Shown: piece after piece, positions 4,998 to 35,619 of the stretch
How positions within the stretch are numbered: position 1 is the first letter of the stretch
How the letters are laid out: each line of letters starts with the position of its first letter
DNA from: Tulasnella sp. 424
Lineage: Eukaryota; Basidiomycota; Agaricomycetes; Cantharellales; Tulasnellaceae
NCBI GenBank assembly: GCA_019633425.1
Contig: WSUB01000154.1
Coordinates: 32,870-96,869, forward strand
Direction of reading: 5' to 3'
DNA length: 64,000 nt
Notes under the pieces: generated by a model
Database searches by the model: none
What the model was told of the DNA's origin: nothing
Seen by the model: the letters and a program-made list of their open reading frames with translations, nothing else
Program-made: the position numbers and the translations under genes

Positions 4998-5009
4998 GGG
5001 CGGACTGGA

Positions 5010-6222: not shown

Positions 6223-9200
6223 CTACTCGACAACTTCGAAACGTGGCCGCTTGGTCTCCCTGTCGTCCTCCACCGCCTCGAGTGCCCTTTTGGCGGAGCC
6301 CGCAGGGTCGGTCATGACAATACCGACAGTAGGATCCAGCGACGGGAAGCCGTTCATCCCATCTGCTGACATACCAAGCAAGTTCAGCATTGCCGAATAC
6401 TGCTCGTCGGAAAGGACTTTGCTGGGCTCTTCCGCTACAGGTCGTGCCATCGTAATTGCTTTGAGGTGCATGAGATGTTTCTGCGATGGACAATCGTTGA
6501 ATTGTGCAGCGTTGGGGAGAGGAGTGGAGATAAAGCAGCGAGCAATCAGGTGACAAGAGCCAGGGATAAGGTAGAGATAAACCCTACCTCGAGCATCGTA
6601 AACAACGACTCCCGTGTGAAAGGCTTCGGTAAGATGTCGTTCATTCCACTTGAGTAGTAAGTGACGACATCGTTTGGCTTGGTGTTGCTCGTCATGGCAA
6701 TGATTGGGGTCATATGGTCAAACTGCCGGATGAGAGATGTTGCCGAGACGCCGTCGAGTTTCGGCATGACAATATCCTTAAGGAAAGGGTGGAAGTGATT
6801 AGATCTGAATGTACGAATTATAAGTGCAAGAGGGCCTGTCAAAGCCTACCATGAGGACGAGGTCGTACTTTTCCAAGTTCATTTTGTTCACTGCACCGGA
6901 ACCATCTACAGCAACGTCGATCGTACAACCTGAGACTTGCAGAAATTTGCTAAAAATCTCTCTGCTGACTTGATCGTCTTCGACCAGGAGTACGCGAGGT
7001 GGATCGGCCCAAGCTGGGGTGAAGGCCCCTTTGCGAATCCGAGGTCGAGAACCACCAGGAGATTCCAGGAGCTCGGTGTTGTCTATTAGATTGGCCGAGA
7101 GGCCGAGACCAGCTCTTGCGGCCGAAGGAGAATTAGAAGGCCTTGGTTCTAATGAACCTTCTTGAATGGTCGCTTTCTGCCTATGGGGATATGTCCATGC
7201 AGTTGCTGGTTGGGAACTGAGGGCCATATCTGGAGTTGCGGAAGGAGAAATAGACGCAGAAGCTTCTTCTTTTTCTCGTTTAGTCACTGGACGAGATCTA
7301 ACGTGGAGTACTCTCCTCGGCGGATTGTAATGTGAGACGATCTCGACACCGGGTTGACCACCTGGCGAAACAACTTGCGGAAGTCCTGATGCAGAGGCTC
7401 GTGTCGACGTCAGATAAGGCGTTATTCCGGGTATTGGGGTCGTTGATGATAGATCGGCAACAGCAGACGTAAGTGGTGCCTCCCGTGCCTGCTTTAACTC
7501 CTCCAAACGCTGCATCGACTCCTGTCTGGCCAAGATTGATCGCTCCATCGGGGACAGTTCAGCCAAAGAGTCATTAACAAGATTCGCGTTGGAGGCGAAT
7601 GATGGCGGACTGCTGTTATTTGTGCCAGCCATGCCGTTGAGATGAGGGAATGAGGAGACATCAGACGCAGGTTGTGCCGGTGCAACACGTTTCAGGTGGT
7701 TGAGGTGTTTCTGCGATGGGTAAATGATCGAGCCGGGCAAGGTTGAGAGGAAGAGCGGAGTTTAAAAGAGGCCAAGTGGTTAGGTGAGAAGAGTTGGGTA
7801 TTGGGTGAAGGTAACCTTACCTCGAGCATCGCAAACAATGACTCCCGTGTAAATGGCTTCGGTAAAATGTCGTTCATTCCGCTTGCGTAGTAAGTGACTA
7901 CATCGTTCGGCTTGCTTTTGCTCGTCATGGCAATAATTGGGGTCATATGGTCAAACTGTCGGATGAGAGATGTTGCCGAGACGCCGTCGAGTTTTGGCAT
8001 GACGATATCCTTAAGGAGAGGGGTGGAATTGATTAGGTCTGAATATGCCGATTGAATGGCAATGAGACCGGTTGAACTTACCATGAGGACGAGGTCGTAC
8101 TTTTCCAAGTTCATTTTATCCACCGCTAGGATACCATCGACAGCAACGTCGATCGTACACCCGGAGACTTGCAGAAATTTGCTAAAGATCTTTCTGCTGA
8201 CTTGATCGTCGTCGACCAGGAGTACGCGAGGTGGAACGACCCAAGCTGGGGTGAAGCGAATCCGAAGTCGAGAACCACCAGGAGATTCCAATAGCTCAGT
8301 ATCATCTGTTGGGTTGACCGTGACACTCGGACCAGCGCTGGTTAGGGGCTGGTTTCCACCAGTGAGCTGGTTCGACTGCCAGCCTTGTTGTGGATGAGGA
8401 GTTTGCGTCTGGAAGAAGATTTCAATAATGTGACTCAGAGAAAATGAGAGAAAATGGAAGGCGGAGAACGGGACGGCGAATAGTGCCAATGGCAATAGGC
8501 CAGTAGAGGGTAGAGGAGTAGCAGCAAGTACCTCGCCGCGAATATGACGATGAAGAGATCACAGTCACGTAAACGACTAAAGATCATGGGAGATCAATTG
8601 GCTCGGCAAAAAAGGATCTGTCTAGCGACAGGGCCAGGCATGAGGAGCCAACTGCCTCAGCAGTTCCGACCAGAACGAAACCGAAGAGACAGACAACAAT
8701 CGCTTACAGCGTTCTGGTTACGTTGTTGAGAGTGGAGAACCGTATCAAAAAACGTTTGCCGTTGTTCGTTCCGGAGAGTGCCGTTGGGCGTTGAGGTTAC
8801 ACCTGGAGGGTGATGCTGAGGTTGGTTGGGGTTGTGGTATTGGGTCGGAATACCGAAGTTGAGACCTTTCGGAGTGATAAAACCACTCATGTCGGCCATT
8901 CTGGTTGGAACGGAAGGTGAGGGGACCGAGGGTGTTGGCTGGCTGAAGGAATGTAATTTAACGACACTCGCAATCTCTTTCTACAGGTGTCGGCAGCTAA
9001 CCTAGGTAATGCAGATTCGACGGTGCGAAGACAGTCAACAGCTGTCGGTCGTTGACTTGGTTGACGGCTCCAACAATTCGCGAGCACAACCTTGAACTCC
9101 TGCGCGTATGACGAAAGGTTGGCTACATCGCTGGGGGATTTTCCTTGTACAATTGCAAGCATTAGCTGAGCATCGAGCTTGATATTGGCAAACGGGATCT

Positions 9201-10208
9201 CGTCTGTTAGTGCCTGAAATTGTGACGGGTCAGCGGGAGGCTGACAAAGAGGTGGCGTTTGACCTTGCAGACTTGCCTCCACCACGAGACAGCCCCAAGA
9301 CCATATATCGTTTGGTAACGATTCTGCAGCTCTCCCCTCAAGCAGGACTTCCGGACTCGAGTACCGTATCGTATACCTGGCGTCATTACCCGTAGTAAAA
9401 CCTGTGGGACCGGTATCTAGAGTTTTCGAGAGACCGAAATCCGCTAACAATGCACGACGATCGGAGTTCACAAGAACATTCCCCTTGCAAACATCGCAAC
9501 AAGGTCAATATCGTAAGACGATGCCTAACATTTGGTACAACGTACCGGTTTTAGGTCTCCGTGACGAATAGGGGCGTTTTGGGTGTGGAGATAAGCGAGG
9601 CCATCGGTTAGGTCACGGACCTAACGGCAAGCTGGATCAGGTCAGCCCGGCCAGAAAACACATTTCCGAACGCACTAAATATAGGCGCTCATTGCGAGAC
9701 GGCCCCGTCTTTGCAATAAAGTCTTTAAGATCGCCATGTTTCATGTACTCGGAGATCAGCAACGCTGTTTTATAGTCGTCCCCGAGGTGAAACCCCAGTA
9801 AGGGAAGGACGTGCGGGTGCCGGAGTCCCGCCCAGACCTTGAGTTCGCGTGCCAATCGCTTCAAAAAATAGGTATCAGAATCCGTCTCAATTCAATAAAA
9901 TACACCGTTTTACTGACAAAAGCAAGTCTGTTCGGTTCGAGAGCCCGAGCACCGAATCGGAGTTTTTTTGCCGCCACGAGTTTGGATGTAGATTTTCCAG
10001 AGTCCAACGTAGCCACCTTGAGTTCACAATAACCACCCACGATCTCTTCATATCCTTGTTCGTATGTGAGTCTCACGATATCTATGAAAAGGTGGTTTAG
10101 AGTGTCAAGGCACTGTTGCTGTGAGCGGGTCGGAGTTGTCAGTTGCAGGGGTCAAGTCAGCATGATGTTTCTTACCAGTGCAGAATGGTCAAGTCGAGAG
10201 TCGCTCAT
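6223..10208 (-). CDS. TKL-type protein kinase fused to two Skn7-type response-regulator receivers
   Basis: Twelve exons are predicted: 10208-10176, 10118-9918, 9858-9676, 9620-9546, 9483-9277, 9213-9002, 8942-8708, 8408-8082, 8009-7821, 7710-6850, 6776-6588 and 6480-6223. They sum to 2970 nt (989 aa) with consistent phases. The kinase module (about 1-303) has a degenerate glycine loop (VGGYCELKV), VAAK lysine, RELKVWAGL helix C, HGDLKPGNVL catalytic loop, DFG and SPE. After a Q/P-rich linker come receiver 1 (about 440-560) and receiver 2 (about 790-905). Both keep the acidic pair, the phosphoacceptor Asp (DIVMPKLDG; D492 and D842), MTS and PKPF. They resemble the Skn7/Prr1 receiver, but no HSF-type DNA-binding domain is encoded. 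A 200-residue linker with a short coiled-coil-like stretch separates the receivers. Intron 5 appears to use a GC donor. The join between kinase and receiver (8707-8409) is inferred from splice signals and frame; separate genes are the alternative. Confidence 0.72.
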
Positions 10209-10346
10209 CGCGGTGGCGGTGGTACGGTCGATGTTGAGATTCTGACGTGGACGGGCGGGTGTAAAGCCAAGGGGGATATGCTATGGGACGGCACTGGTCT
10301 GCATCGTAATCCATTTGTTCGTATTTAAGTGTTTCATTCGTGCCGT

Positions 10347-10469: not shown

Positions 10470-11400
10470 GTTCGGGAATTCGTGGTTGATCTCTTTATCT
10501 TCAATCAGTCAACAAAGAACAATACAGGCTAACAGCTACTAGTACTGTGCAGTGAGTGTGTTTACTAGGGAGATGAACGACGGAGCATCGTACTTGAGGC
10601 AGTAGCATTAAACGATACCATGCGGATACACCTTGATCGCTACCATTAATCTCAGGTGGCGCCTCAGGACCCTTTTTTATGCTAACCTTATTATGAGGTC
10701 ATGAAAGGGTCTGGATGGACCAGGACTTAATTCTTCCTGTTTTGGGGTCATGGACCCTGACGTCCTTGGCGTTGCTCGGGTTGTCCCCGAGGGAACGCTA
10801 TTGGCTGCCGGTCAAACGCCTGAGTCACTGCTGTGTTTCATACAAGCTTCCACAGCTCCCGACGAGGTCTCTTCCTGGCCATTGCCGTGGACCAGGTCTC
10901 CTCCCCGGATTATTTTTTGACCAACAGAGCTTCCTGCCACGATCTTCGGTCCTACGTCATAGCTCTTCGGTGATCACGCGTCTCGAGAGCCTGTGGTGTG
11001 TGATGGGTAGCGCTAGCGTAGCTGGGCAATTGCTTTCTGAACACGGGTGGATTACGGTAATAGAGTAGCAACTCCGATTGCATCAAAGACAACATTAGTA
11101 ATATGACAGTTTCCTTCACGGAAAATCGTTTGCTTATCTGACACCGTACTCAGAAGGGCGTTGCCGAAGTTGTGAATCTGACCTGTACTCCTTACTCCGA
11201 CCTCAGTACACCTTTTCCGCCCCCTCCCCGGATTTTAAATTCAAATTATCATAAAAGTATATAGAAAAGTTTGGAATGACCTCGGTTGAACAACCCCAAG
11301 AGTTGTCAGAGTCCCCACCTCTGGAGTCGTCACCTCGCACAACGAACAGGTACAAGCCAGCGGCGAAAGCGAAAGATCCGGATAAAGGAAGATGTTGACG
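10470..11400. other. Intergenic region without recognisable gene
   Basis: This separates the kinase-receiver gene from the NFS1 pseudogene end. An open stretch at 10715-11068 shows no family resemblance and no splice context. I see no RNA gene or repeat shared with other parts of the window. Confidence 0.4.
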
Positions 11401-11404
11401 ATTT

Positions 11405-12930
11405 TTAATGGTGAGACCAGTCAATTGTATTAATATCATTACCCTGCTGAGCCATCTCCCACAACGGGCTGAACAAAGAAGACCAATTCAGCACGGTCGC
11501 GATGGCGAAGTACAGCCACGGACTCGCTTTATCTCTCTCAATCGGTTGACGGTCGCAGTTATCCCGTCAATAACGTAGCCAACCTCTCCCTCCGTTGTTA
11601 CCCGACCCATGCCGAATCGTGGGGAAGAGTGGGCCATACCCTCAGCAGCACCTAGCGAACAAGGAAAGGTCAGTACCCCCAGTCGTGCACGACACGACAG
11701 CGAAGTTCCGCCGACTACCGAGTGCACGGAAAACGTAGGAGGGTTTCAAAGATGCGGAAGTGTGCGGTCCCAGGTGACAACGCGACATCCGAAAATGGGA
11801 TAAAGTCTTTTGCGTGAGATTCGTTCGAGTGTTTCGAGCCCAGCTATCTGACCTTGAGTGTCATCAACAAGGTTTCGCCCTCAACGTATAAGAAACTGAG
11901 GTTGACGCATCCGGGGAAGCCATTGACGTCGCCATTGCGAACGACATGCTCGACTCGCGAGTTGATGCCGTTGATGAGGCGTTTTGAAAGTTTCGAGATG
12001 TGGGCATTGTCGGCCTGGAAATGATAGCACGGTATCAGCACCACAGCAGGCGAGGCTGATACATATATTTCTCTCGGCTCAGTACCCCTGCACCGGGGCC
12101 ATAGCAAAGCCGACGCACACGAATGCTTTGCAGAGCAATGTAACGTCGCTCTACTCATTGTATGGCTTTTCGCCTAGGTGCGGATTTCATCAAATTCGAC
12201 CTTGTGAAGGAGCAAGGGCTTACCGCTATCTCCTGCTTTGCGATACGTGCGGCTGCTCCCAAGCCGACAACCAAAGGCCCAGGAAGCGTGCCACTCCTCA
12301 ACCCGCGCTCCTACCCGCCACCGTTGATAATCGGCTCTAGTCGGACACGTGGTTTCCGTCTGACATGGCAGGCTCCAATAAACTCATTCCATAAATCTTG
12401 TGACCTCTCAGCAAGTCGATCTTCATCTCGTTGACATAAATAGCGATATTGCCAAGGGCCTGAGCGGCATCGGTGTGGAAGAAGACGCCCTTCTTGCTGC
12501 TTGACTGTTTCAACAATATCTTTGAGGGGCTGGATAACACCGGTTTGGGTGTTGATGACAATTATAGAAACAAGAGACGTCGTTGGTCGGATGGCAGCCT
12601 TCAGGACCTCGAAATCGACGACGCCGTTCTTTTGAACGGGGAGGTAAGTAATTTCAAAGCCTTCTTCCGAGAATTTTCGGTACGAGTCGAGGAGCATTCG
12701 TGACCCGTTTGGATGGTGGTGATGTAGTTCGGTCGCGCTGGAGGTGACGACGATGTCCTTCGCGTCCGCCCCAACAGTCTGGAGGGAGACAACGTACGTT
12801 ACTATGGAGCTCTATGGGTGGATAATCTAGGTATAGCAAACCTTCTGGGAGGCTGCGGCATCCTTCCAACCGTATATTAGGGGTACAAGCATTCCCTTAC
12901 TGGTTTGTCGTGCGCGGCACCATTGCCTCG
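11405..12930 (-). pseudogene. NFS1 cysteine desulfurase pseudogene (body, exons 3-9)
   Basis: The minus strand aligns along the intact NFS1 gene (26996-28625) up to its C-terminal exon and the TAA at 11405. Lesions are visible. Exon 3 is degenerate, and the PLP-site region NNETG has become NTQTG. A frameshift after the ETVKQ segment moves the rest of exon 4 out of frame (a neighbouring frame resumes with [13 protein letters not shown]), and the residues before the PLP lysine (SISGHKIYG) are altered to LRGHKIYG. Exons 1-2 are absent; their remnant lies beyond gene A copy 2 at 17340-17580. It is non-functional as read. Confidence 0.85.
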
Positions 12931-13060
12931 ACATCAGGGCGCCTTACAAACCCACCTCTGCGCCCATCTGTAGACTTGTCTCGTTTAGACGTCCGGCAGA
13001 ATTCATCCCAAGTAAGTTTCGACTGTCAGGCTGACCCTACCTTCGAGAGTAGTGGTCGCT
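12928..13060 (+). repeat. Direct repeat, copy c
   Basis: Starts CGACATCAGGGCGCC, continues through a GTTTAGACGTCCGGCAG core and ends near CGACTGTCAGGCTGACC. It abuts the broken exon 3 of the NFS1 pseudogene on the left and the gene A copy 2 promoter on the right. It is most similar to copies b and d at its left end and to copy a at its right end. Confidence 0.65.
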
Positions 13061-13242
13061 GAGTGGCTGGATGAGTGGGACGCGAGTTTGAGTTGCCGAA
13101 GTCGCCGCGTCGGATTTGTCGTGGGTGTCACGGCGACAACCGGGGACAAAACCTTTGCCCCGCTTCCGTCAACCAACAACGCTCAAGGTGAAGTTTGGCT
13201 ACACTCGGGCAGGACAAAGACGACGTTTTGTTCTGCCCGCAG

Positions 13243-13532
13243 TGTATATATTGCCCCCTCAAACCTCACCTGTCTCTCTTACCTCGCGTCCCCCCCTCTT
13301 CCCCTTCATCATCCACCGTCGACTCTATCAACCTTCAGCGCAAAGACCTTATTTTTGTTGAACGTTGGACCAGGTAAGTGATAAGCCATATTTACTTTCA
13401 TCGAACTGATAGTCTAATTCATAATATTGACTTTTCTGCAGTTGTTTGTCCTCGAAATTTCTCTGCAAGCAGAGTTTGATCGCCATCAATCGTCGAGCGT
13501 TCTACGGAGTCACCCCGAGTAACCTTTTCAAG
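13243..13532 (+). promoter_or_regulatory. Gene A copy 2 promoter and 5' UTR intron
   Basis: TGTATATATT at 13243-13252 is followed by a C/T-rich leader and a 68-nt intron at 13374-13441 (GTAAGT..CTGCAG). The start ATG is at 13533. The layout is the same as for copy 1. Confidence 0.55.
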
Positions 13533-16127
13533 ATGGCGATGCCTTTACGTAGATGTCACGCAATTTTTATCTCTCTCGAACCCACCAACACCAACACCAA
13601 CCTCGCTCCTGCTCCTGCTCAAGCCACGTCATCGGCTGCACCAACTGTCCCCGCTACCCGTCCACCTGCACATTTAAGAAGGACCCATGCGACCTTCATC
13701 CCTCTCGAACCCGCCCCTACCAACACCGCCGTCCCTCCTCCTCCCGCCCAAGCCTCGTCATCGACTGCACCCAGCGTCCCCGCCACCCGTCCACCTGCAC
13801 CTTTACAAAGGACCCATGCGACCTTCATCCCTCTTGAACCCGCCTCTACCAACACCTCCCTCCCTCCTCCTCCCGCTCAGGCCTCGTCGTCGACTACACC
13901 CAGCGTCGCCCCCCAACCATTAAGCAGGACTTATGCGACCCTGATCTCTCTTGCGCCTCCCCAACCCACCCTCGCCAGTTTCCCTCCTCCCCCCACCCAA
14001 GCGACGTCATCCACTACGCCCATCGTCCCCGCCGCTGTTCCAACGCCCACCCCTTCCGCGTCCACTTCCACCGCTCCCGTCGCCGAACTCCCCTTCCCTC
14101 TGCCCGAGGTGGACATGCTCTACGCATGCAACTACGCTTGCGGACCCCAGCTGTGCGACTGGTGCGCCAAAAACCGTCCTCCCATCGGCGACGCGAACCC
14201 CATCCCCCACTTCATTATCTCCACCATCATTCGACACACCATGCCGCATAGGTTCGAGTCGCTGGAGCGGATCAAGGACTGGGAGATCGCCACGGGCCTT
14301 GTGGACCCACCGAATGTCGGCGAAAGGGATGACGTTGAGTATCAGCCAGGGGGTGACTTCAAGCCCCCGGCATGGGGTTCGGACAGGGCTCGGCCTAAGA
14401 AGTCTTCTATGAAACACAAAGTGAGTACTACCTGGAGTGATCACCGCGAAGTATAGTCACTGACTTCACGCTTTGTCCGAATAGTCTACCCGCTTCGCTC
14501 CTTACCCAGACCCATCCACCCGAAACGCCCTCGTCCGACGGTCGACTGAGGATATCAAGGCTTCTCTCGACGAAGCTCACGCCAACCGGATTCAGTCCAA
14601 CTACGAAGGTCCGGTGGCCATCGGCATTCGGAACGAAATTTCCGATCTCAACGTCCCGGGCGAAAAGCCTTTCAAGTGGGAGCCCGAGTATACTGGCCCA
14701 CCATCCGACACACTCCCCGAAGGTGATACCCTTACCAGCGATACCACCGCCGATGCTGAGCCATCTACGTCCAACTCGATGGAAGAAGACCTTGAAGACG
14801 AGGCTGCTGTGGTTGAGATCGTACTCCCAACTCAAAGCAAGGTAAGGTCGTTTCTTTATACTGAGCGGCGCGCCCAAATACTTATATTTTATCTACTTCT
14901 TTCTCGCAGAAACGTCGATTCGTGGAAGACGAGGAGTACGATGCCAATATCAACTCCACTACCACCGCCTCGCCTTCGAAGAAGCTTCGGACCACGAGAC
15001 GGCTTCCTGGTTCCAAGCTGGCTGCTTTCTCCATACCCTCATTCAAACTTCCCTCCTTCTCTATCACTATCAGCTTTCCATCTTTCTCTACCACAGTATC
15101 CTTTGCCTCCCCAAATCGTTCACCCTCTCCGTCGGCAGCCTCAACCGCGGTGGCCCCGGACTCTTCATCATCCGATGGGGAGTCCTCTTCCTCGCCTCGC
15201 AGGCAACGCGTCGAAAAGAAGAAGCTCCGCTTCTTACTCTCCGACCCTTCCTCCCTCCACCCTAAGTTCGGCATTCCCGATTCCATATACTTCCACCACC
15301 GCCGCTTGAATTCGACCTCCAAGAACGTGCGGAGCCAGAAGAAGAGCAAGGTCTACGTCCCGCAAGACAAGAAGACCTGGACTCCGGAGGAGATTGGATA
15401 CGCGGCGCTGGGCAAGGAGGACTGGGATGAGATGCGCAAGACCTCCCTCGAAAGGAAGACCTCGCTCAAGAAGCTTGAGGAACGCGTGAAGAAGAGCGAG
15501 GCGATCGACGCCGCCGCCGAGCGCTTCCAGAAGCTCGTCGACAAGTACGAAGAGGATTGTGGCGCGGTCGACCTGAAGGGAGTGAGGGCGCGGTTCATCC
15601 GCCCGAGGAGGAACGAGGTCCAGCGGGAGAAGAACAAGGAGGCGATGCCGCGGCTAGGTCCTCTCGACGAGATGAGGAGACACTACCCGGCGTTCGAGCA
15701 TCCCGCCTGGGATGGTGTCGATGCGGTCGCCATCGCGGCGTGGACCAGGAGCCCTCACTACAAGTTGAGGGTCAACGAGGTGATGGCTGAGGTGGAGCGC
15801 AAGGAGAAGGGGAAGCAGAAGGCGAACGCCGAGCCGGATGAGGCTACGGAGATCGCGACTGTCGTGGACGAGGATGAGGAGAGGATGCGCCGGGAGTTCT
15901 TGGCGGCGGAGGTCGACGAGGTGGAGGCGCCTCGTAGAGGTGGTTCGGGGTCCGCTTGGGGGCCTGCGTCCGGTGAGGGTGAAGGCGGTCTCGGCAGGCA
16001 GATGGCGTTGAGCGTTGTCGACTTCGACAGCCAGTGGTCCGCGCCTAGTGCGCCTCATCCCACTGGCTTCGACGACGAGTGGTCGACGCCGGGTGCTGGT
16101 CCCTCGGGTTGGGCCAGCTCGTTCTAA
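13533..16127 (+). CDS. Gene A copy 2: proline-rich repeat protein of unknown function
   Basis: This is the paralogue of 558-3248. Exons 13533-14420, 14485-14841 and 14910-16127 give 820 codons. The same layout is seen: N-terminal RTHATFIPLEP-type repeats, Cys cluster (CNYACGPQLCDWC), acidic middle, conserved FLLSDPSSLHPKF block and a charged C-terminal half with a Gly/Trp tail. It has four N-terminal repeats against five in copy 1, so one repeat unit was gained or lost in frame. It carries a four-residue insertion (EPST) in the acidic part. Both copies keep open frames and splice sites, which argues that both are still under selection or recently duplicated. It lies between the two halves of a broken NFS1 gene. 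Function unknown. Confidence 0.75.
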
Positions 16128-17330
16128 AATCTTACCTCACCAACACCCCTCCCAACGTCCTCCACGACGACTGACGATCTTGGCGGAGAGTTAGGTCGCC
16201 GTTGAGGACTAACTGGGGTGCAGGTGAGGTAGAGTGTGTTTTACTTAAGGAAGGAATTTGGAGATGGGTTGCAGAGTATTTGAAGACTTTCCTTTCCTTT
16301 CATCCCTTCCTCCCTTGGCGACGACGGACAACGTTTTCTTTTTCCTCGCGCTGCTCCCTGTGATGATGGGAGCGGGATCGACGCCGCCTGTAAAAGGTAA
16401 GTTCGGGTCTCTCTTTACTTTCTGCCTTGGGGCGTATGGCTGACGTTCTTGTTTCTTTACTTCCAGGCGGCTCTTCCATAAATTATTCCACATCTTTTTT
16501 CTCTTTATTATATTTTCCTTTCATCATTTCTCCCTTCCCATTCTCGCACTTCACATCACCATGGACTTGTGGCTGGCCTCGGCTCTGTCGCCTGTTCTCC
16601 CCCTTCCCCCTTCCATCCGAGCTTCCCCAGGGTCCTGCGCCTGCAATACCCGCAGGCCGGGGGAGGATCGCGAGTTCGTTGCCTTGGTACGTAATTCCCT
16701 GATGCTTTGGAGTTCGGCTGGCTACTGACCTGATCTGGTCTTTGTTCTTCCCAATTTAGCTCGTTCGCGACCGCTCAGCTCCCCACCCCACGTTTCGTTC
16801 CACCTCCATCACATCTTTTCCTCATTTCACATTTCACTTCATCACTGTTTCGTTTCCACCATCCTCTGTTCTCTTCACCATCCCATTCAACACCATTCCC
16901 ATTTACCTCCAAGCATCCTTTGTCACTCCCAGTTCATTGTCGTCTGTAGTTCCACCTTTTTGATTTTTCCTCTCCATTCTCCGTTGTTCCCTTAGTACAC
17001 TTCCATTTATCTGTATCACGTTCTGTTTTTCTGTTTGTTTCCCACTTCCTACTATCCCTCATCTCCTCGTCTGTTGTCTTCCTCCATGTATCTTTTCTCT
17101 CCCCCTTGTTCATTGTTCCTTCATCGCGTCTCAGCCGTCCCTAATCAACTACGACCGTTGCAAAACGTCCTTGTTTCATATCTATTTCCTCTCTCGCCTT
17201 CGTTTCCTTGTTTCCTGTATTTCTTTGTCTCGTTTCCTTTTCTGGGTAGCCTGTCGTATCGTGTCTTCTATGAAATTCGATTGACTTGAAATCGTGAACT
17301 CGGGCCGGGTCGACCCCTGCGAGCGTCTAA
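16128..17330 (+). other. Pyrimidine-rich 3' region of gene A copy 2
   Basis: Non-coding, C/T-rich and collinear with 3249-4440. Intron-like GT..AG segments are retained (for example GTAAGT at about 16398 to CAG near 16467, and GTACGT near 16688 to TTTAG near 16760). A long spliced 3' UTR or non-coding RNA is possible. No protein-coding signal was seen. Confidence 0.35.
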
Positions 17331-17339
17331 GGGGGATAA

Positions 17340-17580
17340 ATTGATCCCTTCCCATAATGGGAATGGGTGCCCTTCACTTTTGCAGGGAATTCAACCCAGC
17401 AAGTCCGAAGAGCCAATGGTTCAGATTGCACTGAACTACAGAAAGCTGAATACTTCCCTGCCTCGGAGAGCAAGCCTGGGCCCCGGCCTCGTTGACGACC
17501 ACAGACGCTCCTTCGACTTGGGGAATTTCCAAAACGGTGGGTACAATTGGGATCCAAGTTTACCAAACTTTACTTTGTAA
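17340..17580 (-). pseudogene. Detached 5' remnant of NFS1, second copy
   Basis: Counterpart of 4478-4725. It matches NFS1 exon 1 end, intron 1, exon 2 start (FPAKVKGT-like) and 5' flank on the minus strand, with the presequence region deleted. Read with the body pseudogene at 11405-12930, it supplies the missing 5' part in the correct orientation. Gene A copy 2 lies between the two pieces. Confidence 0.7.
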
Positions 17581-17716
17581 TTACATAAGCATGTGCCACA
17601 GAATTGTTTATCAGGGTGTCCCTCCGCGCGTCTTCAGACTCGGGAAGAGTAATGCGCTGTGTAAGGCGGCCTAGAATTGCGTTGGAATATGGACCAACGT
17701 CCAGGATACGTTCCTA

Positions 17717-23160: not shown

Positions 23161-23179
23161 TACGACTCCTTCTCCCAAC

Positions 23180-26100: not shown

Positions 26101-26555
26101 TCAGACATGAGGACAGCGATTCTGCAGTCTTTATCGAGATAATAGCCAACCACCGGCAGAACATGCGGGTGGTGAAGGCTCGCCCACACCTTGAGTTCAC
26201 GAGCCAAGCGCTATCCAACAGAAAGTTATTAGATGTTGGAAAGGATAGTTAAGTTTGACGAACAAATGCGAGTCTTTCGTGTTCCTTGTGTCGAGCTTTG
26301 AGATAAATTCTTTTCGCGGCGACCAACTTGGACCCAGCAGTTCCAGAATCCAATCTCGATACTTGAACTTCGCCATATCCACCTCGCTTTGTCTCATATC
26401 CTGCTTCGGCTTTGAGTCGGTTGATATCGATATAAAGGTGGTTGAGGGTCTTGAGACAATCCTCCTGTTGGGCGGTAATCGGATGAGTGCATGAACCGGG
26501 CAACATCGTATCGATTTACACATACCAGGGCAGCAAAGTCAAGCTGAGAGCTCAT
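23180..26555 (-). CDS. TKL-type protein kinase fused to an ARID (Swi1-like) protein
   Basis: Ten exons are predicted: 26555-26526, 26464-26264, 26210-26028, 25978-25904, 25846-25640, 25582-25344, 25249-24724, 24657-24231, 24167-24007 and 23944-23180. They total 2814 nt (937 aa) with every phase consistent. The kinase module (1-312) has GGYGEVQV, VAAK, RELKVWASL, HGDLKTGNVL, DFG and SPE. Its stop-looking end (25340) is avoided by a GTGAGT donor at 25343 and a TTCAG acceptor at 25250, joining phase 2 to phase 2. The C-terminal part contains an ARID/BRIGHT fold signature (about 435-540: FHEFF, LDPLLVDGKEV, LFLVVGALGG, then a W and a Y/FE helix). ARID is the DNA-binding domain of SWI/SNF subunits such as Swi1. 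It also has a Gln-rich N-terminal linker and a repeated acidic WxWAIDSxQWATE tail. If the splice at 25343 is not used, these are two adjacent genes 200 bp apart. Confidence 0.68.
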
Positions 26556-26664
26556 CTCTAGGACTATAGCCTTGAATATTAGGAGAAAGCGCCGGGAAGG
26601 CTAGGTGATGGAGGCAGTCTGGTTCAAAATGGATGGGAGGTAAGGCGATGAATGTGTGTCCTTT

Positions 26665-26673
26665 TCTATATGG
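26665..26673 (-). promoter_or_regulatory. TATA-like element of the kinase-ARID gene
   Basis: On the minus strand CCATATAGA stands about 115 nt upstream of the ATG at 26555. It is similar to, but not identical with, the CTATATAG of the two kinase-receiver genes. Confidence 0.4.
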
Positions 26674-26995
26674 AATTCCATCCTTTGTTCGCGGCGTCCA
26701 TCGGCCAGCACAGCCACTGCAATAATTGAACTCGCGACGAGAGACGCCGCACATTATGCGCTCAAAAGCTACGTCCAAGGGTAAGCCCTGGCTCCACTAG
26801 TATAATGGGACAATGATTGGTAAGCGAATCCACTTTGTCCAACGTAATCAATCCGCAAGTGGTCCCGTATCCCATACAAATTAGCTAACCAGCGCGCTGA
26901 GACGGCACTATAGCAGATAGTATAGGGAAAGAGAAACCAAGTACAAGCCAGTGGCCAAAGCGAAGAATGCAGATAAAGGAAACTGTTGACGATTT

Positions 26996-29003
26996 TTAAT
27001 GCTGAGACCAGTCAATGGTGTTAATATCGATACCCTCCTGAACCATCTCCCACAACGGACTGAACAAGGCAGACCAACTCAGCACGGTCACGACGGCGAT
27101 GTACTGCACACGAACTCACCTCATCTCTCTCAATCGGTTGACGGTAGCAGTTATTCTGTCAATAACGTAGTCAACCTCTGCCTCCGTCGTAAACCGACCC
27201 ATGCCGAATCGTAGGGAAGAGTGGGCCATGTCCTCAGCAGCACCTAGCGAACACGGAAACGTCAGTACCAGTAGCAACACGACAGCGTTCCGCATACGTA
27301 CCAAGTGCACGGAGAACGTAGGAGGGTTCCAAAGATGCGGAAGTACACGCGCTCCCAGATGACAACGCGACATCCTAGAATGGGGTAAATTCTTTAGGTG
27401 AGATTCGTTCGAGCATTACGAGCCCAGCTATCTGACCTTGAGTGCCATCAACAAGCTTTCACCTTCAACGTATGAGAAACTGAGGTTGACGCATCCGGGG
27501 AAGCCATTAACATCGCCATTGCGAACGACATGCTCGACTCGCGAGTTGATGCCATCGATGAGGCGTTTTGAAAGGTTCGAGATATGGGCATGGTCGGCCT
27601 GGAAAATGATAGCACGTTATCAGCACCACAGCAAGCGAGGCTGACACATTTCTCTAAGCTCAGTACCCCTGCACCGGGGTCATAGCAAAGCCGACGCAGA
27701 CGAATGCTTCGCGGAGCAATGTAACGTCGCTCTGCTCATCGTATGGCTTTTCGCCAAGGTGCGGATTTCATCAAATTTCGACCTTGTGAAGGAACAAGAA
27801 CTCACCGCCATCTCCTGTTGTGCGATGCGCGCTGCCGCTCCCAAACCGACAACCAAAGGCGCGGGAAGCGTGCCACTCCTCAAACCGCGCTCCTGTCCGC
27901 CACCGTTGATGATCGGCTCTAGTCGGACACGCGGTCTGCGTCGGACATAGCAGGCTCCAATACCCTTCGGTCCATAAATCTTGTGGCCTGATATGCTCAG
28001 CAAGTCGATTTTCATGTCGTTAACATCAATAGCGATCTTGCCAACGGCCTGGGCCGCATCGGTATGGAAGAAGACGCCCTTGTGCTGCTTGACTATTTCG
28101 CCAATTTCTTTGAGGGGCTGGATAACACCGGTTTCGTTGTTGACGGCCATAATGGAAACGAGGGACGTCGTTGGTCGGATGGCAGCCTTCAGGACCTCGA
28201 GGTCGACGATGCCGTTCTTTTGAACAGGGAGGTAAGTGATCTCGAAGCCTTCTTCCGAGAGTTTTCGGCACGAATCGAGGACACATTTGTGTTCGGTCTG
28301 GACGGTGATGATGTGGTTCTTCTTCTCTTTGTAGAAGCGAGCAACACCCTTGATGACCATGTTATTTGATTCGGTCGCGCCGGAGGTGAAGACAATGTCC
28401 TTTGCGTCTGCCCCGATCAGGTCAGCGACGCTCTGCGAAGAGAAAGTAGGTTAACTTGGAGCTCTATGCAGTGGTAGAGCAAGTGTAGCGAACCTTCCGG
28501 GCTTCTTCGACACCCTCCTCAGCCTCCCATCCGTACGCATGGGTGCGACTGTGAGGATTGCCATACTGATTTGTCATGTAGGGCATCATTGCGTCCAGCA
28601 CTCGAGGATCCATCGGCGTGGTAGCCTTGAGTGGTTATCCTCTGTCAGCGTAAGCTATGGGACTTAACGGCTCTGGGAGAACTTGCCTGGAGGTCAAGGT
28701 AAATGGGTCTGTCCGTGCCTTTCACTTTTGCAGGGACTTCGAGCTTGAAGCCCAGGATGTCTGAAGAGGGGATGGTTCAGATTGTACAGAGCTACAGAAA
28801 GGATAATACTTACCTGCCCTTGGGGAGAAAGTCTGCACCTCGGCCTGTTTATGATCTAGGGGTGGGTCGACCACTGATGCTCGGCCGACGGGCGAGGGCT
28901 GAACGAAAGTCCTCGCAGAACTCGTCGAGGCTACAAGCCTTGAGGATGCAGCTCTTGGTATTGATTTCGGAAGACGACTGAGCATTATTGGATGAGTCTG
29001 CAA
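26996..29003 (-). CDS. NFS1: Mitochondrial cysteine desulfurase NFS1
   Basis: NFS1 removes sulfur from cysteine for Fe-S cluster assembly in mitochondria, working with Isu1, Isd11 and frataxin. Nine exons are predicted: 29003-28814, 28760-28687, 28625-28494, 28432-27806, 27746-27726, 27598-27437, 27374-27302, 27243-27120 and 27059-26996 (1467 nt, 488 aa). The N-terminus is rich in Arg, Ser and Ala, as expected of a presequence. Seen in order: [35 protein letters not shown], the PLP lysine in SGHKIYG (about residue 290), the catalytic cysteine loop [13 protein letters not shown] (about 412) and the conserved C-terminus ending [10 protein letters not shown]. Intron 2 uses a GC donor, and exon 5 is only 21 nt. 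The start could also be the Met six codons in. This is the intact copy of the NFS1 pieces scattered in the left half. Confidence 0.92.
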
Positions 29004-29439: not shown

Positions 29440-31916
29440 CATGATTCCGAATGGGTCCGCCATCCAAAACTTCATCTCAAAGCCCCTAGATGGAAATTTA
29501 TGAAAACACAAATGACTAAATACACGACAGTCATTCTCAGAAAACAATCGTTCTCAGTCAAATCATGCGAAGAAGGAAAAAGAAATGAGAAATTATTCAA
29601 AGGCCTGGCGAATTAAATATTCAGCGATAGAGGGTAAGTACCGGAAAGATCCATCCAGGCGGGAGGGTGAGCCAAGCAAGGCCGTTGAAACCTTGCCGCC
29701 GGTACCTTTGCCGATCAAACCTCCCTTCACCCACTTGATCGGCGTTGCAGGGAGATAAATGCATTCAGAGGACAACAAACCTTTGCACAGAATTACCACT
29801 CAGGTCGAGGAGCAGGTCCCGTGGGCGACTCAGGAATGGTTGGTGGCGTTCCATCCTTAACTTGACCGGGTGTGTCCACTCTGATACTCCAAAGCTTCGC
29901 ACTCCTCTTCCTTCCTAAATCGGCCGCCGTTGGGGGCTCTCGCGCTGAGTCAACCCTCTTCAAATCTTTTCTCTTTCACGAACCGAATGCTCTTCCGGTG
30001 CGTGGACTTGGCCTCTCCGACACAGGTGCGGGGACGGGCGGGGGAAGAGCTTCACCGCCAAGCGACGAAGGCCCCTCTTTTACAATTTAGACTTAATAAA
30101 CTGCTTTCCAAGGTCGTGGTCCGGGGAAAAATCTTGGGAATTTTGTCACAGCGGATAATAGGGTGATTTTCTATAGGACCCCCGCGTTTGTTATATTTTC
30201 CCATGGAGAGACCCTTATTTTAGTGTATATAGCAGTTCAGTTATCAGTTGAAATTAAATACAATGGAATACTTGGGTCGCACGTGCCGTGCGTCGAGCAC
30301 CTTGCTCCAGGAACCCGTCGAAGCTGGGACAGGATATTAATCTTCGCTATAGTTTTGCGTGGACTCCTTTATTATTTTACTTAATGTATATAGCAAAAGT
30401 CAAGTAATGGGATAAGTCTAAACAAACCGAAACGCTTAGCGACATACCATCTGCAGCTTCCTTGCGGCAGAGGCTGTATTTTCTTCATGGTTGGGACTTC
30501 AACAACTTGGAGAGTCGAACTTAATATTGATCTGTTGCAGGCCTCCATGTACTCGGGTGGACCCGAAGCGCAGACTGCAGCAGTAATAAAGTAGAGCGAA
30601 ATGAGCTCAATACGCACTTCGAGACCGTTGTCGCTCTGGAAACTCAAGTTAGAGTGACTGGATGCTATCCTGAATCAGAACTAGCCTGAATAGAATCGAA
30701 AGCTGCGGAGGTCCACCTGCACATGCGTTGGTGTACTGCCGCTTGGGCATATTGAAGGTATCCAGGGCGGAATAGAACTGATAACCGATGCGGCGCCGGA
30801 GCTTCCAGATTTAACTCTCGCTTAATAGCAAAATCGTCGCGCCGTTTACACCGACATCACGTCCTCTTACTACCGCATATGACGCTAGTATTGCTTTTCC
30901 CGGTTGCTGAGCAGAACGGGCAAGTGATGATGGATGATTGGCAGATAACCAGATTAAACGCACATGCGGTGTTTTCAAAGTTCTGGTCAGGAAAGCAGAA
31001 CGCTTTTGCAGGAACTACTTTATATTCCCCAAACTTGCAAACTGGCTTGTAAAAGACTAGCTAACAATGCCAATATGTCAGAGTCACTCAGCACCAAGAC
31101 GCAAATGAGGCGGCAGAACCATAAGTAATGAACGAGTAGACGTAAGCGGGGGTGTTTGGGGACAGAGAAAAGGAAGAACCGACTAACCGCCGACGGGGGA
31201 CTAGGACCCTGCAGCTGGCACCGCGCACTGATTACGTAAATACGTTCATGAGAGAGACCTTGACGGAGCAAGGTGATTACTATTAAATATTCTCTCCCTC
31301 GGGCAACCGTCCTCCCCTCTCCAAGAAAAATTCCGACAAGAAATCCTGCAGATGGTCCTGCACGTCATCCTGAATCGGACTGGACGCCCCCGTGCCTCCG
31401 GGGGACGATGGGAGGCTGTTCATGACTCCACCTGTAAGAGTCAAACCGGGGCCAGAAGAAGGCGAGAGCGAGTTTTCTCTTGAAATTGGTGGGTAGGTTA
31501 CAGCAGTTGACGGCTTTGGCGAATCCTGGTCATCAACCAGGGGCAAGATAGTCGGTGTTAGATTGGGTCCTCTGGTTCGCCTCAATAGTCTTATGGCGAA
31601 GTTTCCTTCATCTTCAAGTCCGTTCGTTTTGACTTCTGGGGGAGTGGCAGTAGCCGACGGGGCAGATGACGTGTTCGAGAAACACTCATCGTCTTCATTT
31701 GAGTCGCTGTCGCAACCTCCCTCGTCCTCCCCCTCCGGCTGGGCATCGACATCACGATTGGATTGGGATGGAACTTCCCTTCGGATGGATTCCGCATGAG
31801 GGGACCGCATTGACGCACGCTTCGCCTTTGCAGTGATCACTGCCGGCGTAGCTTGACGAAAGGAGACTTGAGCGGTTCTGGGTTTCAGGGTCCCCGTCCC
31901 TGATACATCATCATCA
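29440..31916 (-). pseudogene. Relic of a BCK1-type MAPKKK 3' half, kinase domain deleted
   Basis: This continues the Bck1-like homology beyond the stop of the fused gene at 31917. A frameshift sits at about 31920-31930, where the paralogue runs through GDRERLL. Serine-rich sequence follows in another frame to 31283, then 30136-29790 matches paralogue 39000-38650. At about 29735-29660 the kinase start (IKWVKGGLIGKG, loop GKV) is joined directly to the kinase end (WLTLPPGWIF). Everything between, including the catalytic loop and DFG, is missing. The 3' flank 29440-29640 still matches 37195-37400 downstream of intact BCK1, so the whole gene was duplicated before it decayed. The relic is interrupted by about 1.2 kb of unrelated DNA. 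Confidence 0.75.
30137..31340. other. About 1.2-kb insertion inside the MAPKKK relic
   Basis: Homology to intact BCK1 breaks at a point coding [10 protein letters not shown] and resumes 1.2 kb later. The flanks carry similar 10-mers (about GAAAAATCTT and AAGAAATCCT), compatible with a diverged target-site duplication. The insert has a TATA-like GTATATAGC near 30220 and a short minus-strand open stretch at 30381-30647 with no family resemblance. No terminal inverted repeats or transposase were recognised. Confidence 0.4.
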
Positions 31917-34900
31917 TTATGGGAGCCGCTCTCGATCACCAGGTTTCAATGTGCCTTCATTACCATCATCGGTGAACTCGGTCGACGGCATCGCCGACAA
32001 CGTGGCAGCTGCAATGATCGGGTCTGGGTTGTCATACAGTTGAACACCGATAGTAGCTGAGGAGGGATCGATAGGAGAAGATAGTGTGACGACGGCCTTC
32101 GGAATCTGCATTCCCATTGTCGGAGGCGTCTCAGGATAAGGGCTAGCTAGAGGTGGAGCTGGCTCGACTGGCGGATCGACCACTGGAAGAGGTGGCCTCC
32201 TTGTTTCGAGCGTGCTAAGGACGTTCGTTGCGCTTTGCTCAATCGGCGATGAGTAAAACTGAGCCGATGAAGCGGCGAGTTGCTGTTGCCTTTCAAATTG
32301 CCTCATGCGCGGATCGAAAGCTTCAGGGGGGAGAACCACATGCCCCCTATGCTTAGTTCTATCTCGCTTCATGGCGGCGGTAACCGAGTCACGTCGTGAA
32401 CTGGGATACTTTACAGCCTGCGATCGTTGCAGGGTGTGGTTTGTGGCCGTGTAAGACGTGCTGCTCGCATGTGGGTAAGGTCGGCTTGCCGAAGGCGTTG
32501 TAGCGGAGGCTGGAGAGAATCGCGGACCATCGGAGGGTGGAGAACCAGCCCAATCGTTGACTGCGCCAGTAGTGTTCGACCGCCTATAAGACGGAGTTCG
32601 CTGACCCATGCCTTGGAGCCGTTTGGGTTCAGTAACACTGGTAGGAGTCGGGAATACTTCGTTCATCATTACCCATCCATGGGTAACACTTGAATCAACG
32701 TTTTCGCTCTGATGAGTTTTGTGACCCAAAGGATTTGACCCATCACCACTATGAGCCCGCTGTGCCCCACCCCCCTCAGCCTCTTCTTGGTTATATTGAG
32801 AATCATACTCCTTGTTCCGTGCCTCCTGATACCGCTGAGGCTCGAACGCCTGCTCTCGCTTCATGGCGGCGGTATCCCATTCACGTCGTTGGTGAGCCAC
32901 CGGGGTGTTCGGACTCCGATAAGCTCCAATTGCGGCGAAGCTGGAATGCCGAGAAGGTTGAGATCGTTGAGAAGACATCCCGGCCAACGGTGTAATAGGA
33001 CGGTCATAGGCTGGCGAGAACAAAGGCGGCAGAGGACTGGGTATAGCGGGAAGAGGTCGGACATATGGCGCAGTAGTGGCCTGAGTCGGTGATACGAGTT
33101 GCGGTTGAGGAGGGGGAGCAGCGGGATTGCGCTGGACGATAAACTTGAGCGTGCCTTTTGCATCCGCCCATGCCCCACAATAGATCATGAGCTGATCGTC
33201 GGTGACCGAGTCTCCGAGCGCGGCCTCTCCGAGCTCCGTGCGGTATAGTTGGTGATTCTTGTGGTCATCGTCAGGAATGCGCAGCTGAATGGAACAATGG
33301 GGCGTTGTTAGCAAGCGTATGTAATAAAGTGATTTAACACGATAGCAGTATTACCTGTGAGAACATACGTTCGCGAATGAAGGCGGCATCTTTTGCGCCA
33401 GTAATGTCAACAATAACATGATTTTTGGCATCGGCAGTCACCGTAATAATTAGCTTGTCGACTGCTTCTCGGCGATCGGGCTTGATTAGAGTCGGTGCCG
33501 GGCCGAGATTTACCACTTGCTGAGACTGTAGAATGCTCTTAGATCCTTGGGAAACGCTTGGCACCGGGAGAGGCTTTGGGATGAGCTGAGCGGTTGTCTG
33601 CAGTGTGTTGCGTTGGATGGGAACTGCATCCTCGTCGCTGCCGTTGTCAGGATTGAATATGGTGAGGCGTATCTTACGTCCCGCTGCGGAGCTTGAACTA
33701 GGCCTTGGCGAACTGGCATTGGTGGAGCGAGCCGTCACGGATGCTTGAGTTCCTTGTCTGGCTCCCCTTGGGGATTGAAAACCAGGTTGTGAGGAAAGAT
33801 GTGTGGTGATACATTGACGGCCACTACTAAAAGATCGTGGGGGATTATTAGATCACGAGTTCTTCGCAGGCGACGTTCCGCCATTGGAACAAGGGAAGCG
33901 ACCTTCCACTGACCTATCAGTAACGTCACCCAGCTCCGCATAAGATGTTTCACGATTCACTATTTGAAGACAATCCTGGGTGGATGATTGAGCTCCTTGC
34001 CTGGCTCCACTCGGGGACTGAAAACCAGGTTGTGAGGAAAGATATCGATGTGTGACGATAAATTGACGTCCACTACTAAAAGATCGCGGGGGATTATTAG
34101 ATCACGAGTTCTTCGCAGGCCCTGTTCCGCCATTGGAACAAGGGAAGCGACCTTCAACTAACCTATCAGTAACGTCATCCAGCTCCGCATAAGATGTTTC
34201 ACGATTCACTATATGGGGACAATTCTTGGTGGATGATTGAGCTCCTTGTCTGGCTCCACTTGGGGACTGAAAACCAGGTTGTGAGGAAATATGTGTGACG
34301 ATAAACTGACGTTCACTACTAAACGATCGTGGGGGATTATTAGATCATGAGTTCTTCGCAGGCCATGTTCCGCCATTGGAACAAGGGAAGCGACCTTCAA
34401 CTGACCTATCAATAACGTCATTCGGCTCCGCATGAGATGTTTCACTATTCAGTATACGAATACAATCCTTTGCCAACGGCCGCTTATGTGGCTGAAGGGA
34501 CCAGCAGCGTGCTAAAAGGCGTTTTATGGCTGGAGCCGGAATGGGCAAGGTTTCTACATCACTCGGTAGCTCATTTGTCACGAGGGCTACAAAGACGTGA
34601 TGTTCATGCATCTTCTCAGCATACGGAACCTTGTCCGTCAAGACCTGCATGTCTCAAGTTTAGCACCAAGGCACGGCGGGAATTTTGCATCGGACACATG
34701 CCTCCAGGACTAAACAGGCCCATGCCCAGATGTCACTTGACAGATTCTGTGCGGGATTCGTGTCTGTTACAAGCTCCGGACTGTAGTATCGAAGTGTCCC
34801 TTTAAGGCCTTCGCTGGTAGTAAGGCCCGTTGGCCGCTCCTCCAGGGCCTTCGAGAGGCCGAAGTCTGCCAGAACTGCCCGTTGCTCTGCGTTTACGAGA

Positions 34901-35619
34901 ACATTACCCTGATTAGCCCGAGATTAGAACCATAATTCCCTGTGAGGATTCAAAAATGATACCATTTTCAAGTCGCCGTGACGAACAGGCGGCTCTTGCG
35001 CGTGAAGATATGCGAGTCCGTCCGTGAGGTCTCGAACCTGCTTGCCAAGGTTAGCCTTGCACGAACAAAAATTTAAGCAGGAGGCTGACCAAGTTTAAGC
35101 GCGGAGCCCAAGAAGGCCTCGTTTGGTCGATATAGTTCCTGAGATCTCCATAGATCATGTACTCAGATATTAAGATGGCAATTGTCCATCCTTCATCAAG
35201 ATAGTAGCCGAACAAGGGCAAAATATGGGGGTGGTGAAGCCCTGCCCAGACCTTGAGCTCTCGAGCCAACCGCTATCGGGGAAAGGGATGTTAAAATTGC
35301 TTAGGGGCATCATTTTTCATACTTGACGGACAAACGCAAGTCTCTCAGGATCGTTGTCTGGCCCCCTGAGACTGATTCTTTTCGCAGCAACCAGCTTGGA
35401 GCTGGGGGTCCCTGGATCCAACGTGGATACCTGAACGTTCCCATATCCGCCCCTCTTCTCCGCGTATCCTGTTTCGACCACAATCCGAGTGAAGTCGATG
35501 AAAAGATGCTCGAGTGTTTGAAAGCACTGCACCTGTGATACCAAGATTAAAGTGCTAAAAATGATCAACAGATCAAGTCAGCTCACCAGAGCAGCGAAGT
35601 TTAGTTTACAGTTGCTCAT
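31917..35619 (-). CDS. TKL-type protein kinase fused to the N-terminal region of a Bck1-like MAPKKK
   Basis: Ten exons are predicted: 35619-35587, 35532-35332, 35272-35090, 35037-34963, 34908-34702, 34644-34406, 34318-34163, 34075-33914, 33826-33355 and 33284-31917. They sum to 3096 nt (1031 aa) with consistent phases. The kinase module (1-312) has GGYGNVQV, VAAK, RELKVWAGL, HGDLK, GNVLVN, DFG and SPE. It leaves through a phase-2 intron (34405-34319, GTCAGT..TTTAG, branch-like CTAAT) that removes in-frame stops. Three tandem exon repeats follow (SSQPGFQSPSGARQG-type), related to a Bck1 segment. Then come the Bck1 RA-like region (about 540-625: [33 protein letters not shown]) and a Ser/Pro-rich tail. 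The frame stops where the parent gene would continue to its kinase domain. Intron 5 uses a GC donor. Upstream and downstream parts could still be separate genes, though the Bck1-like part then has no ATG. Confidence 0.65.
33740..34440 (-). repeat. Three tandem 240-bp repeats, each an exon plus intron
   Basis: The units are about 33740-33960, 33960-34205 and 34205-34440. Each contains the end of an exon (ETSYAELDDVTD), an 86-87 nt intron with conserved donor (GTCAGT or GTTAGT), branch-like CTAAT and TTTAG acceptor, and a following exon with SSQPGFQSPSGARQG. Every unit keeps the coding frame and hides the same TGA inside the intron. They lie between the kinase module and the Bck1-like part. Confidence 0.8.

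Follow-up and report, generated by a model that had tools for sequence, protein, structure and literature searches.

How did four related protein kinase genes come to run on, each in a single open frame, into pieces of unrelated regulatory proteins, and what might such genes do for a fungus? The question is raised by a stretch of 64,000 nucleotides (nt) from the 46.8-Mb genome of Tulasnella sp. 424, which we call the window (assembly GCA_019633425.1, contig WSUB01000154.1, here C62, positions 32870-96869 of that contig). Labels such as C2, C35, C62, C101, C179, C412 and C413 denote contigs of this same genome. In the window, genes A, B, C and D each begin with the exons of a TKL-like kinase and continue into parts of SKN7, ARID or BCK1 genes. 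The reading to which we incline, with confidence a little better than even, is that they belong to a family of TKL-like kinase fusion genes that carry captured pieces of the fungus's own regulators as an integrated bait or adaptor. Judged from their sequences, they are very probably expressed fusion genes made by DNA duplication; that the captured domain serves as a bait or sensor is a tentative proposal, made by analogy and held at somewhat less than even confidence. The genes and the parent lying beside them are laid out as follows.

6223-10208, minus strand: gene A, spliced model of 12 exons, 2928 nt
10208-9002, minus strand: kinase exons of gene A
8900-8708, minus strand: ARID-gene N-terminal exon of gene A
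8408-7821, minus strand: SKN7 receiver 1 of gene A
7710-6223, minus strand: SKN7 linker, receiver 2 and C-terminus of gene A
18591-21308, minus strand: gene B, 9 exons, 1968 nt; kinase, coding bridge, ARID-gene N-terminal piece, then a single SKN7 receiver with C-terminus
23180-26555, minus strand: gene C, 10 exons, 2814 nt; kinase exons 26555-25344, phase-2 intron 25343-25250, a short tail common to C and the C101 kinase, and an ARID-gene piece with the ARID domain
31283-35619, minus strand: gene D; kinase, tandem intron-exon copies, BCK1 N-terminal regulatory region
33914-34405, minus strand: copies 1 and 2 of the three in the D tandem repeat, units of 243 nt (exon 156 nt) and 249 nt (exon 162 nt)
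37209-42906, minus strand: native BCK1, directly upstream of D on the same strand, kinase domain with an expect value (E) of 1e-25

The exon structure proposed by the initial annotation is present in the sequence. The four starts at 10208, 21308, 26555 and 35619 are followed by a first exon of 30-33 nt and exons of 201, 183, 75 and 207 nt, all in phase 0, and the exon behind these closes at 9002 in A, 25344 in C and 34406 in D, each time in phase 2. The stretch of B that matches the phase-2 intron is indeed coding, through to 19796; aligned with A, this bridge is the counterpart of A's phase-2 intron and of the region of the ARID-gene ATG. Introns 8707-8409, 19795-19534, 25343-25250 and 34405-34319, which the annotation had named, have acceptable splice ends, and the 20 introns between the shared exons of the four genes measure 49-70 nt, 18 of them GT-AG and two GC-AG (A 9276-9214, D 34701-34645). 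Totals of 1968 nt for B, 2814 for C and 3096 for D were reproduced, but A sums to 2928 rather than 2970 nt, still a multiple of three. The stop of D at 31917, which closes a frame of 3096 nt (1031 residues), is not obligatory: a 64-nt GT-AG intron (31963-31900) would carry the frame to a stop at 31283, for 3666 nt and 1221 residues, adding some 205 codons of which 199 can be aligned with BCK1. The tandem unit of D, about 245 nt of intron and exon in three copies, preserves the frame with each copy.

Pfam searches of three-frame translations of the four loci (minus strand) identified the kinase, three receivers and an ARID domain. The kinase of A matches PF07714/PF00069 with E 8e-21 (74.9 bits, cut-off 23.1); B, C and D match as well, the first piece of D alone falling below the cut-off. 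No NLR module was among the matches, and the A and B loci had no match to the HSF domain. Because this DNA-binding domain is absent from them, A and B are not SKN7 genes. The 220 nt upstream of the four starts gave no sign of a shared promoter, with none of the six pairwise comparisons significant.

The parents of the captured parts were sought by searching the same genome with the partner sequences. SKN7 lies on C2 and has both HSF domain and receiver, the ARID gene lies on C412, and BCK1 is in the window itself. We presume the ARID parent to be SWI1-like, and BCK1 is a name that the initial annotation and we assign by judgement to a parent with a matching kinase domain, no database match giving that name. 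Kinase-plus-partner genes are thus present as the initial annotation had said, and their partners derive from the fungus's own genes, which exist apart from the kinase: within the stretches read, no kinase of the fusion family is joined to SKN7, ARID, BCK1 or a further, KDM5-like, parent. The partners of A and B are SKN7-type receivers, as proposed, but the partner is itself a mosaic of a native ARID-gene start and the 3' half of SKN7. In A its first 64 residues match the ARID-gene start at 60%, and the following exon switches to SKN7; because the one gives way to the other in this manner, A and B are mosaics of three parts. In A a second set of SKN7 linker, receiver and C-terminus follows the first, and in the alignment B does not have the ATG that opens the native ARID frame. 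The partner of D is the BCK1 N-terminal region, as had been stated. Loss of the parent's output domain, also proposed, applies to SKN7 in A and B and to BCK1 in D, but C keeps the ARID domain and two copies elsewhere in the genome (C62bck1C and C179b) have a BCK1-like kinase domain after the kinase.

The family extends well beyond the window. A search of the genome with the kinase of C gave 193 matches, counted per exon, and genomic stretches were taken for eight close copies and for further, mostly more distant, kinases. Fifteen kinases, A-D and 11 others, could be assembled exon by exon, all with the same exon blocks and without a stop. In the alignment, the catalytic Lys, the DFG motif and the APE-like motif (here SPE) are kept in 15/15, and the HxD Asp stands in HGD in 14/15 and in RGD in C412b. 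Partners were assigned outside the window as follows.

C35arid: ARID, then a PLU-1/KDM5-like C-terminus
C35pp4: PP4R3 EVH1 (E 3e-15)
C62bckL: BCK1 regulatory piece, assigned by eye
C62bck1C: BCK1 linker and kinase domain
C179a: SH3 (E 5e-4, under the Pfam cut-off)
C179b: BCK1 linker and kinase domain, recognised also from the near-identical protein P0015 of Tulasnella sp. 425
C413, 15185-17600: kinase, followed by a long open region and, downstream, a KN homeobox (E 2e-10), a candidate partner

On C62 outside the window, the family kinases at 26570-28479 (plus strand) and 31297-29779 (minus strand) have BCK1-like pieces behind them, one of them then followed by a kinase domain, and a BCK1 N-terminal fragment lies at 784-1279 of that contig. 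The more distant kinases taken include C443, C333, C391, C290 and C66; of these, the partner scan covered C443 and C333 and found none for either. The sequence behind the C101 kinase reads N from about position 292930.

Related proteins were collected in three protein searches, which contributed the best 120 of 256 matches in one and 56 and 40 in the other two. Partner tails were inspected in 53 public relatives, 49 from named Tulasnella and four open reading frames (ORFs) labelled 'lgn'. Among the matches listed, the kinase fusion family appears to be close only in Tulasnella, and the partners there include ARID, PLU-1 and PHD, receiver, YTH (P0131, P0154), dsRBD (P0129) and GYF (P0123) domains, with WD40 in more distant matches. 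An hmmscan of ten relatives found a ZZ domain in P0011 and confirmed the receiver of P0133, a protein of Tulasnella sp. 408 that combines the kinase with an SKN7 receiver. The caspase domain of P0007 scored 21.3 bits, just below the cut-off of 21.4, and apparently retains the His and Cys of the active site. By eye, P0006 and P0015 have a BCK1-like kinase domain after the TKL kinase, and in P0006 the TKL kinase is itself preceded by further BCK1-like sequence; P0124 and P0152 are kinases without a partner. The search for a kinase module with varied C-terminal domains, which the initial annotation had recommended, thus found other partners in this genome and in other Tulasnella.

Some of these relatives bear on whether the fusions are expressed. 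Four 'lgn' ORFs (P0005, P0007, P0008 and P0011) have no introns and between them join the kinase to ARID, ZZ, caspase-like and unknown partners. They occupy contigs of 1676-2689 nt with 29-508 nt outside the ORF and align to C without gaps across the five kinase intron positions. The 'lgn' entries would be assembled sequence reads and these four are probably transcripts; more distant entries such as P0135 and P0153 were excluded from the transcript evidence. The predicted structure of P0005 (mean pLDDT, a per-residue confidence score, 70.2) has a good kinase, moderate ARID helices and linkers below 50, and its kinase part has a TK/TKL fold by fold comparison. Two partial proteins of Tulasnella sp. 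UAMH 9824, P0126 and P0137, contain kinase, ARID start and SKN7 linker in the order of A and B (E 6e-20 and 7e-17 for the former, 6e-21 and 3e-19 for the latter, in a comparison limited to the two native pieces). From where exon 5 ends as far as the stop, gene B is the same as P0143 of Tulasnella sp. 425, in which the last kinase exon is joined to the receiver. Tulasnella is a genus that forms orchid mycorrhiza, and in an excerpted account of Tulasnella sp. SV6 kinase-like genes are a large group among the symbiosis-regulated genes, 266 going up or down (PMC11503967). This agrees with expression of such kinases, without identifying them.

How, then, were the pieces joined? The initial annotation had proposed exon shuffling, with capture through the conserved intron behind the kinase; the arrangement of the shared and duplicated DNA does not bear this out.

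25187-26637, minus strand: block shared by gene C and the C101 kinase, 1457 nt (~1.45 kb), 84.6% identical
13-10250: duplicated segment with gene A, counterpart at 12975-21351 with gene B
29455-30136, minus strand: remnants of the BCK1 linker and of the two ends of the kinase domain, downstream of D, kinase core missing

The block common to C and C101 runs from 82 nt upstream of the ATG, beyond which weaker similarity may extend, through the intron to about 62 nt into exon 7, and 3' of it the two loci do not match. A second pair of sisters, C35arid and C35pp4, shares 1509 nt (85.5%), again ending about 62 nt past the acceptor, which was read by eye in C35pp4. Because the shared DNA ends inside exon 7, the conserved intron travels with the kinase and the partners change behind it. 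In C a 94-nt intron comes before the ARID piece, the start of which lies within a long exon of the native gene. Exon shuffling at the phase-2 intron was rejected, since the shared DNA passes the intron and, for C, the donor break lies in a native ARID exon. Retroposition was likewise rejected, the captured parts having kept the introns of SKN7, ARID and BCK1. DNA duplication is indicated because the pieces keep their introns and because A/B and D/BCK1 sit in segmental duplications. That of A and B, 8-10 kb long, is discontinuous, with 87-89% identity outside the fusion genes and 71-74% inside. Short internal repeats in several copies lie near its ends (581-1172 and 13556-14033) and are a possible substrate for recombination. 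The two ends of the C cassette, the single one searched for the terminal repeats or target duplications of a DNA transposon, share no stretch of at least 7 nt in either direct or inverted orientation.

The parents' positions suggest a simple route. The stretch 33689-29455, which takes in the D partner and what follows it, is colinear with native BCK1 (42906-37209), with deletions and at 75-88% identity, and no Pfam kinase match was found in 29455-30136 (three frames in one scan, two of three in another). D arose beside an intact BCK1: the BCK1 segment was copied and the kinase core was then lost. On C35, in a region spanning 349527-359720, a native KDM5-like gene with ARID and PLU-1 (356220-359720) lies just upstream of C35arid, and PP4R3 EVH1 pieces flank the C35pp4 kinase on both sides. 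If a 'parent then kinase' pair were duplicated in tandem and one break fell within the parent, the result would be 'parent, kinase joined to parent piece', and the layouts of D with BCK1 and of C35arid with the KDM5-like gene are what such an event would be expected to give. Exchange through the intron is not needed to explain the fusions. The idea that partners replaced a short tail like that of P0124 and P0152 was also tried and was not supported (1296 and 520 of 5000 shuffles reached the score of C, and 3019 that of C101).

A kinase-domain tree of 53 sequences (15 from this genome, 34 relatives and four distant kinases; 19 of the 53 public relatives, with partial or doubled kinases, were omitted) has sister kinases with different partners. 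C pairs with C101 (support 100/97) and C35arid with C35pp4 (94/87), in both cases despite differing partners, and P0006 (BCK1) pairs with P0131 (YTH; 96/88). C179b and C179c do not represent a switch, because their shared DNA reaches into the tail. Over 48 labelled rows the tree requires at least 24 changes for 22 labels, an uncontrolled raw count; the labels were assigned by hand, nine are 'unknown' kinds, and several derive from automatic gene models.

Selection differs between the parts of the fusions. For the kinase, the ratio of nonsynonymous to synonymous substitution (dN/dS) is 0.14-0.19 in five of six pairs, dS being saturated in the sixth. Against native SKN7, the receivers have dN/dS of 0.08 (A1), 0.11 (A2) and 0.31 (B) at dS of about 0.5-0.65, pairwise values that, as for all captured pieces, also contain the parent's constraint; A1 against B gives 0.29 and the SKN7 linker of A 0.50. 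The last SKN7 exon of A differs from the native one by a dS of 0.08, compared with 0.5-0.65 for the receivers of A, which suggests later gene conversion. In addition to domain match and homology, the A and B receivers keep phospho-Asp and Lys, and also the positions of the acidic pair and of Thr. No stop occurs in any of the seven captured pieces tested. If half of the silent divergence is assigned to the copy, the neutral chance of this is 0.0035 for the BCK1 piece of D, 0.0045 for the second SKN7 piece of A, 0.012 for B and 0.02 for a third ARID piece. The receivers appear, on these data, to be the best case for a working captured domain.

A number of observations weigh against a family of functional fusions. 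The absence of stops is weak evidence for receiver 1 of A (0.07) and for two ARID pieces (0.15 and 0.29). Pairwise dN/dS reaches 0.45-0.54 in the ARID pieces of C (0.37 for one of them cut to its well-aligned part), 0.51 in the BCK1 piece of D and 0.59 in the D extension. Relative to four outgroups, themselves fused copies, C has changed at 35, 39, 29 and 28 sites and the native ARID gene at 5, 12, 9 and 1; because of this excess the ARID piece of C is taken to be relaxed or driven. Kinase and receiver parts thus appear constrained, and ARID and BCK1 parts relaxed, yet open. The D locus is without the C-terminal kinase core of BCK1, and the BCK1 copy may lack its end too. Read by eye, C35arid is without the exon-7 acceptor predicted for its sister, and the gene may be damaged. 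Four of the 15 kinases (C101, C179c, C412a and C412b) have open tails with no recognised partner, C412a being judged through the identical tail of P0019 and C412b from ORFs only. Because 22 labels need 21 changes in any case, most partners were gained once and then inherited. In sp. 424 the fusions are predicted from open frames and splice signals, the P0143 model omits most of exons 1-5, and for the named strains most fusion models come from automatic annotation, which could contain false joins.

In the mechanism that we envisage, a cassette of about 1.5 kb, comprising a little 5' sequence, the kinase exons, a single intron and roughly the first 20 codons of the exon behind it, would be copied as DNA, both in tandem segmental duplications and as dispersed copies. 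Where it lands in frame with pieces of a resident gene, a single spliced transcript would end in an ARID, SKN7-receiver, BCK1 or other domain. The captured domain could then bring the kinase to the parent's pathway or let it sense interference there, and in A and B the bait would be a receiver that could still accept phosphate. Kinases with integrated decoys, as described in plants, offer the closest model for such a function. Taken to its full extent, the analogy would make the family a fungal counterpart of the plant integrated-decoy repertoire, in which fast-evolving kinases, many with a copied regulatory hub of their own genome, sense interference; we consider this extended version rather unlikely. 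The hubs would include a stress receiver, chromatin, the cell-wall MAPKKK, phosphatase 4, an m6A (N6-methyladenosine) reader, a double-stranded RNA binder and a caspase-like protein, the interference might come from parasites, viruses, rival individuals or the orchid partner, and cassette duplication would generate new specificities.

A different role for intact fusions would be rewired signalling, the partner acting as adaptor or competitor so that it anchors the kinase in the parent's complex or, as an orphan receiver, competes with SKN7 for relay phosphate, each fusion tuning stress, cell-wall or chromatin control. The constrained receivers, with acidic pair, phospho-Asp, Thr and Lys positions kept, point in this direction, as do the partners of A, B and D, which lack the output of their parents, and the kinases with BCK1-like parts in several Tulasnella strains. 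The partners are however unrelated (YTH, dsRBD, GYF, EVH1, KDM5-like) and differ among some sisters, which exceeds the tuning of two pathways, and the ARID and BCK1 pieces evolve fast; we regard rewiring as improbable. We attach the same low likelihood to the view that duplication within an unstable kinase cluster repeatedly fuses kinase copies to neighbouring genes, and that most chimeras soon disappear, with nothing selected in them but the kinase. Segmental duplications, relaxed ARID and BCK1 pieces, a vanished BCK1 kinase core, BCK1 and KDM5-like parents that adjoin their chimeras and copies without a recognised partner would all follow from such a by-product. It accounts poorly for receivers held at dN/dS of 0.08-0.31 over a dS of about 0.5-0.65, for the frames of D, B and the second piece of A, open against expectation, for an A/B mosaic preserved in another species and for probable fusion transcripts.

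That kinase and partner are independent neighbouring genes, in phase by chance, is highly improbable. The partner frame of A opens at the native ARID ATG (8899), some 100 nt after the kinase exon, and later in-frame ATGs occur within the partner parts of B and C, as separate genes would have them; B, however, has neither that ATG nor the gap, the piece of C starts within an exon of its donor, behind the 94-nt intron, and relatives have intron-free fusion ORFs. Fusion genes with an integrated bait or adaptor remain the reading that we prefer, at the strength given at the outset.

Other features of the window lie between or beyond these genes. Class-V aminotransferase copies at 12102-12775 and 27683-28450 (minus strand) stand between the kinase genes, the first seemingly split over frames, within an 87% duplicated block (11347-12730 and 26938-28319). 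Tandem copies of a unit of ~1.8-2 kb, 69-84% identical, lie at 46453-53564.

Should the fusions act as sensors, fungi would have evolved integrated-domain surveillance independently, with a kinase as its scaffold, and in an orchid mycorrhizal genus the captured pieces would reveal which fungal hubs are attacked from outside. If they have no such role, the family is still an exceptionally full record of chimeric genes that differ in age and whose parents are still present. With two parents beside their chimeras and sisters that differ in partner, the making and survival of fusion genes become directly measurable.

The native SKN7, BCK1, ARID and KDM5-like genes are alike in being the source of the sequence, and differ in that the HSF domain is still present in SKN7 and the kinase domain in BCK1. 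The closest likeness in other organisms is to the kinase fusion proteins of the Triticeae (Sr43, Lr9, Pm4, Yr36, Snn3 and tandem kinases), which, in the excerpts of the literature considered, likewise combine an apparently active kinase with unrelated domains; repeated lineage-specific gene fusion is described there, and the extra domain has been proposed to be an integrated decoy (PMC10260397). In A-D, as open frames and splice signals indicate, the kinase shares a single reading frame with an unrelated, exchangeable domain. Unlike the plant proteins, the Tulasnella kinase is fungal, TKL-like and N-terminal, one family takes many partners, and these can be recognised as parts of the SKN7, ARID, BCK1, KDM5-like and PP4R3 genes of the same genome; the Tulasnella family is not known to confer resistance. 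NLRs with integrated domains, from plants and, in the portions of that literature seen, discussed also for fungi, similarly pair a fixed signalling module with exchangeable pieces of host proteins, the fixed part being in Tulasnella a kinase. Another mycorrhizal basidiomycete, Laccaria bicolor, has a large TKL expansion (PMC2838846), for which the excerpted account gives numbers rather than capture of host regulators. A search of the literature, with most subscription papers outside its coverage, turned up no fungal kinase family of this kind. The principle of a kinase with an integrated domain is known in plants; its fungal version, built by a single family from its own genome with the parents still visible, is new.

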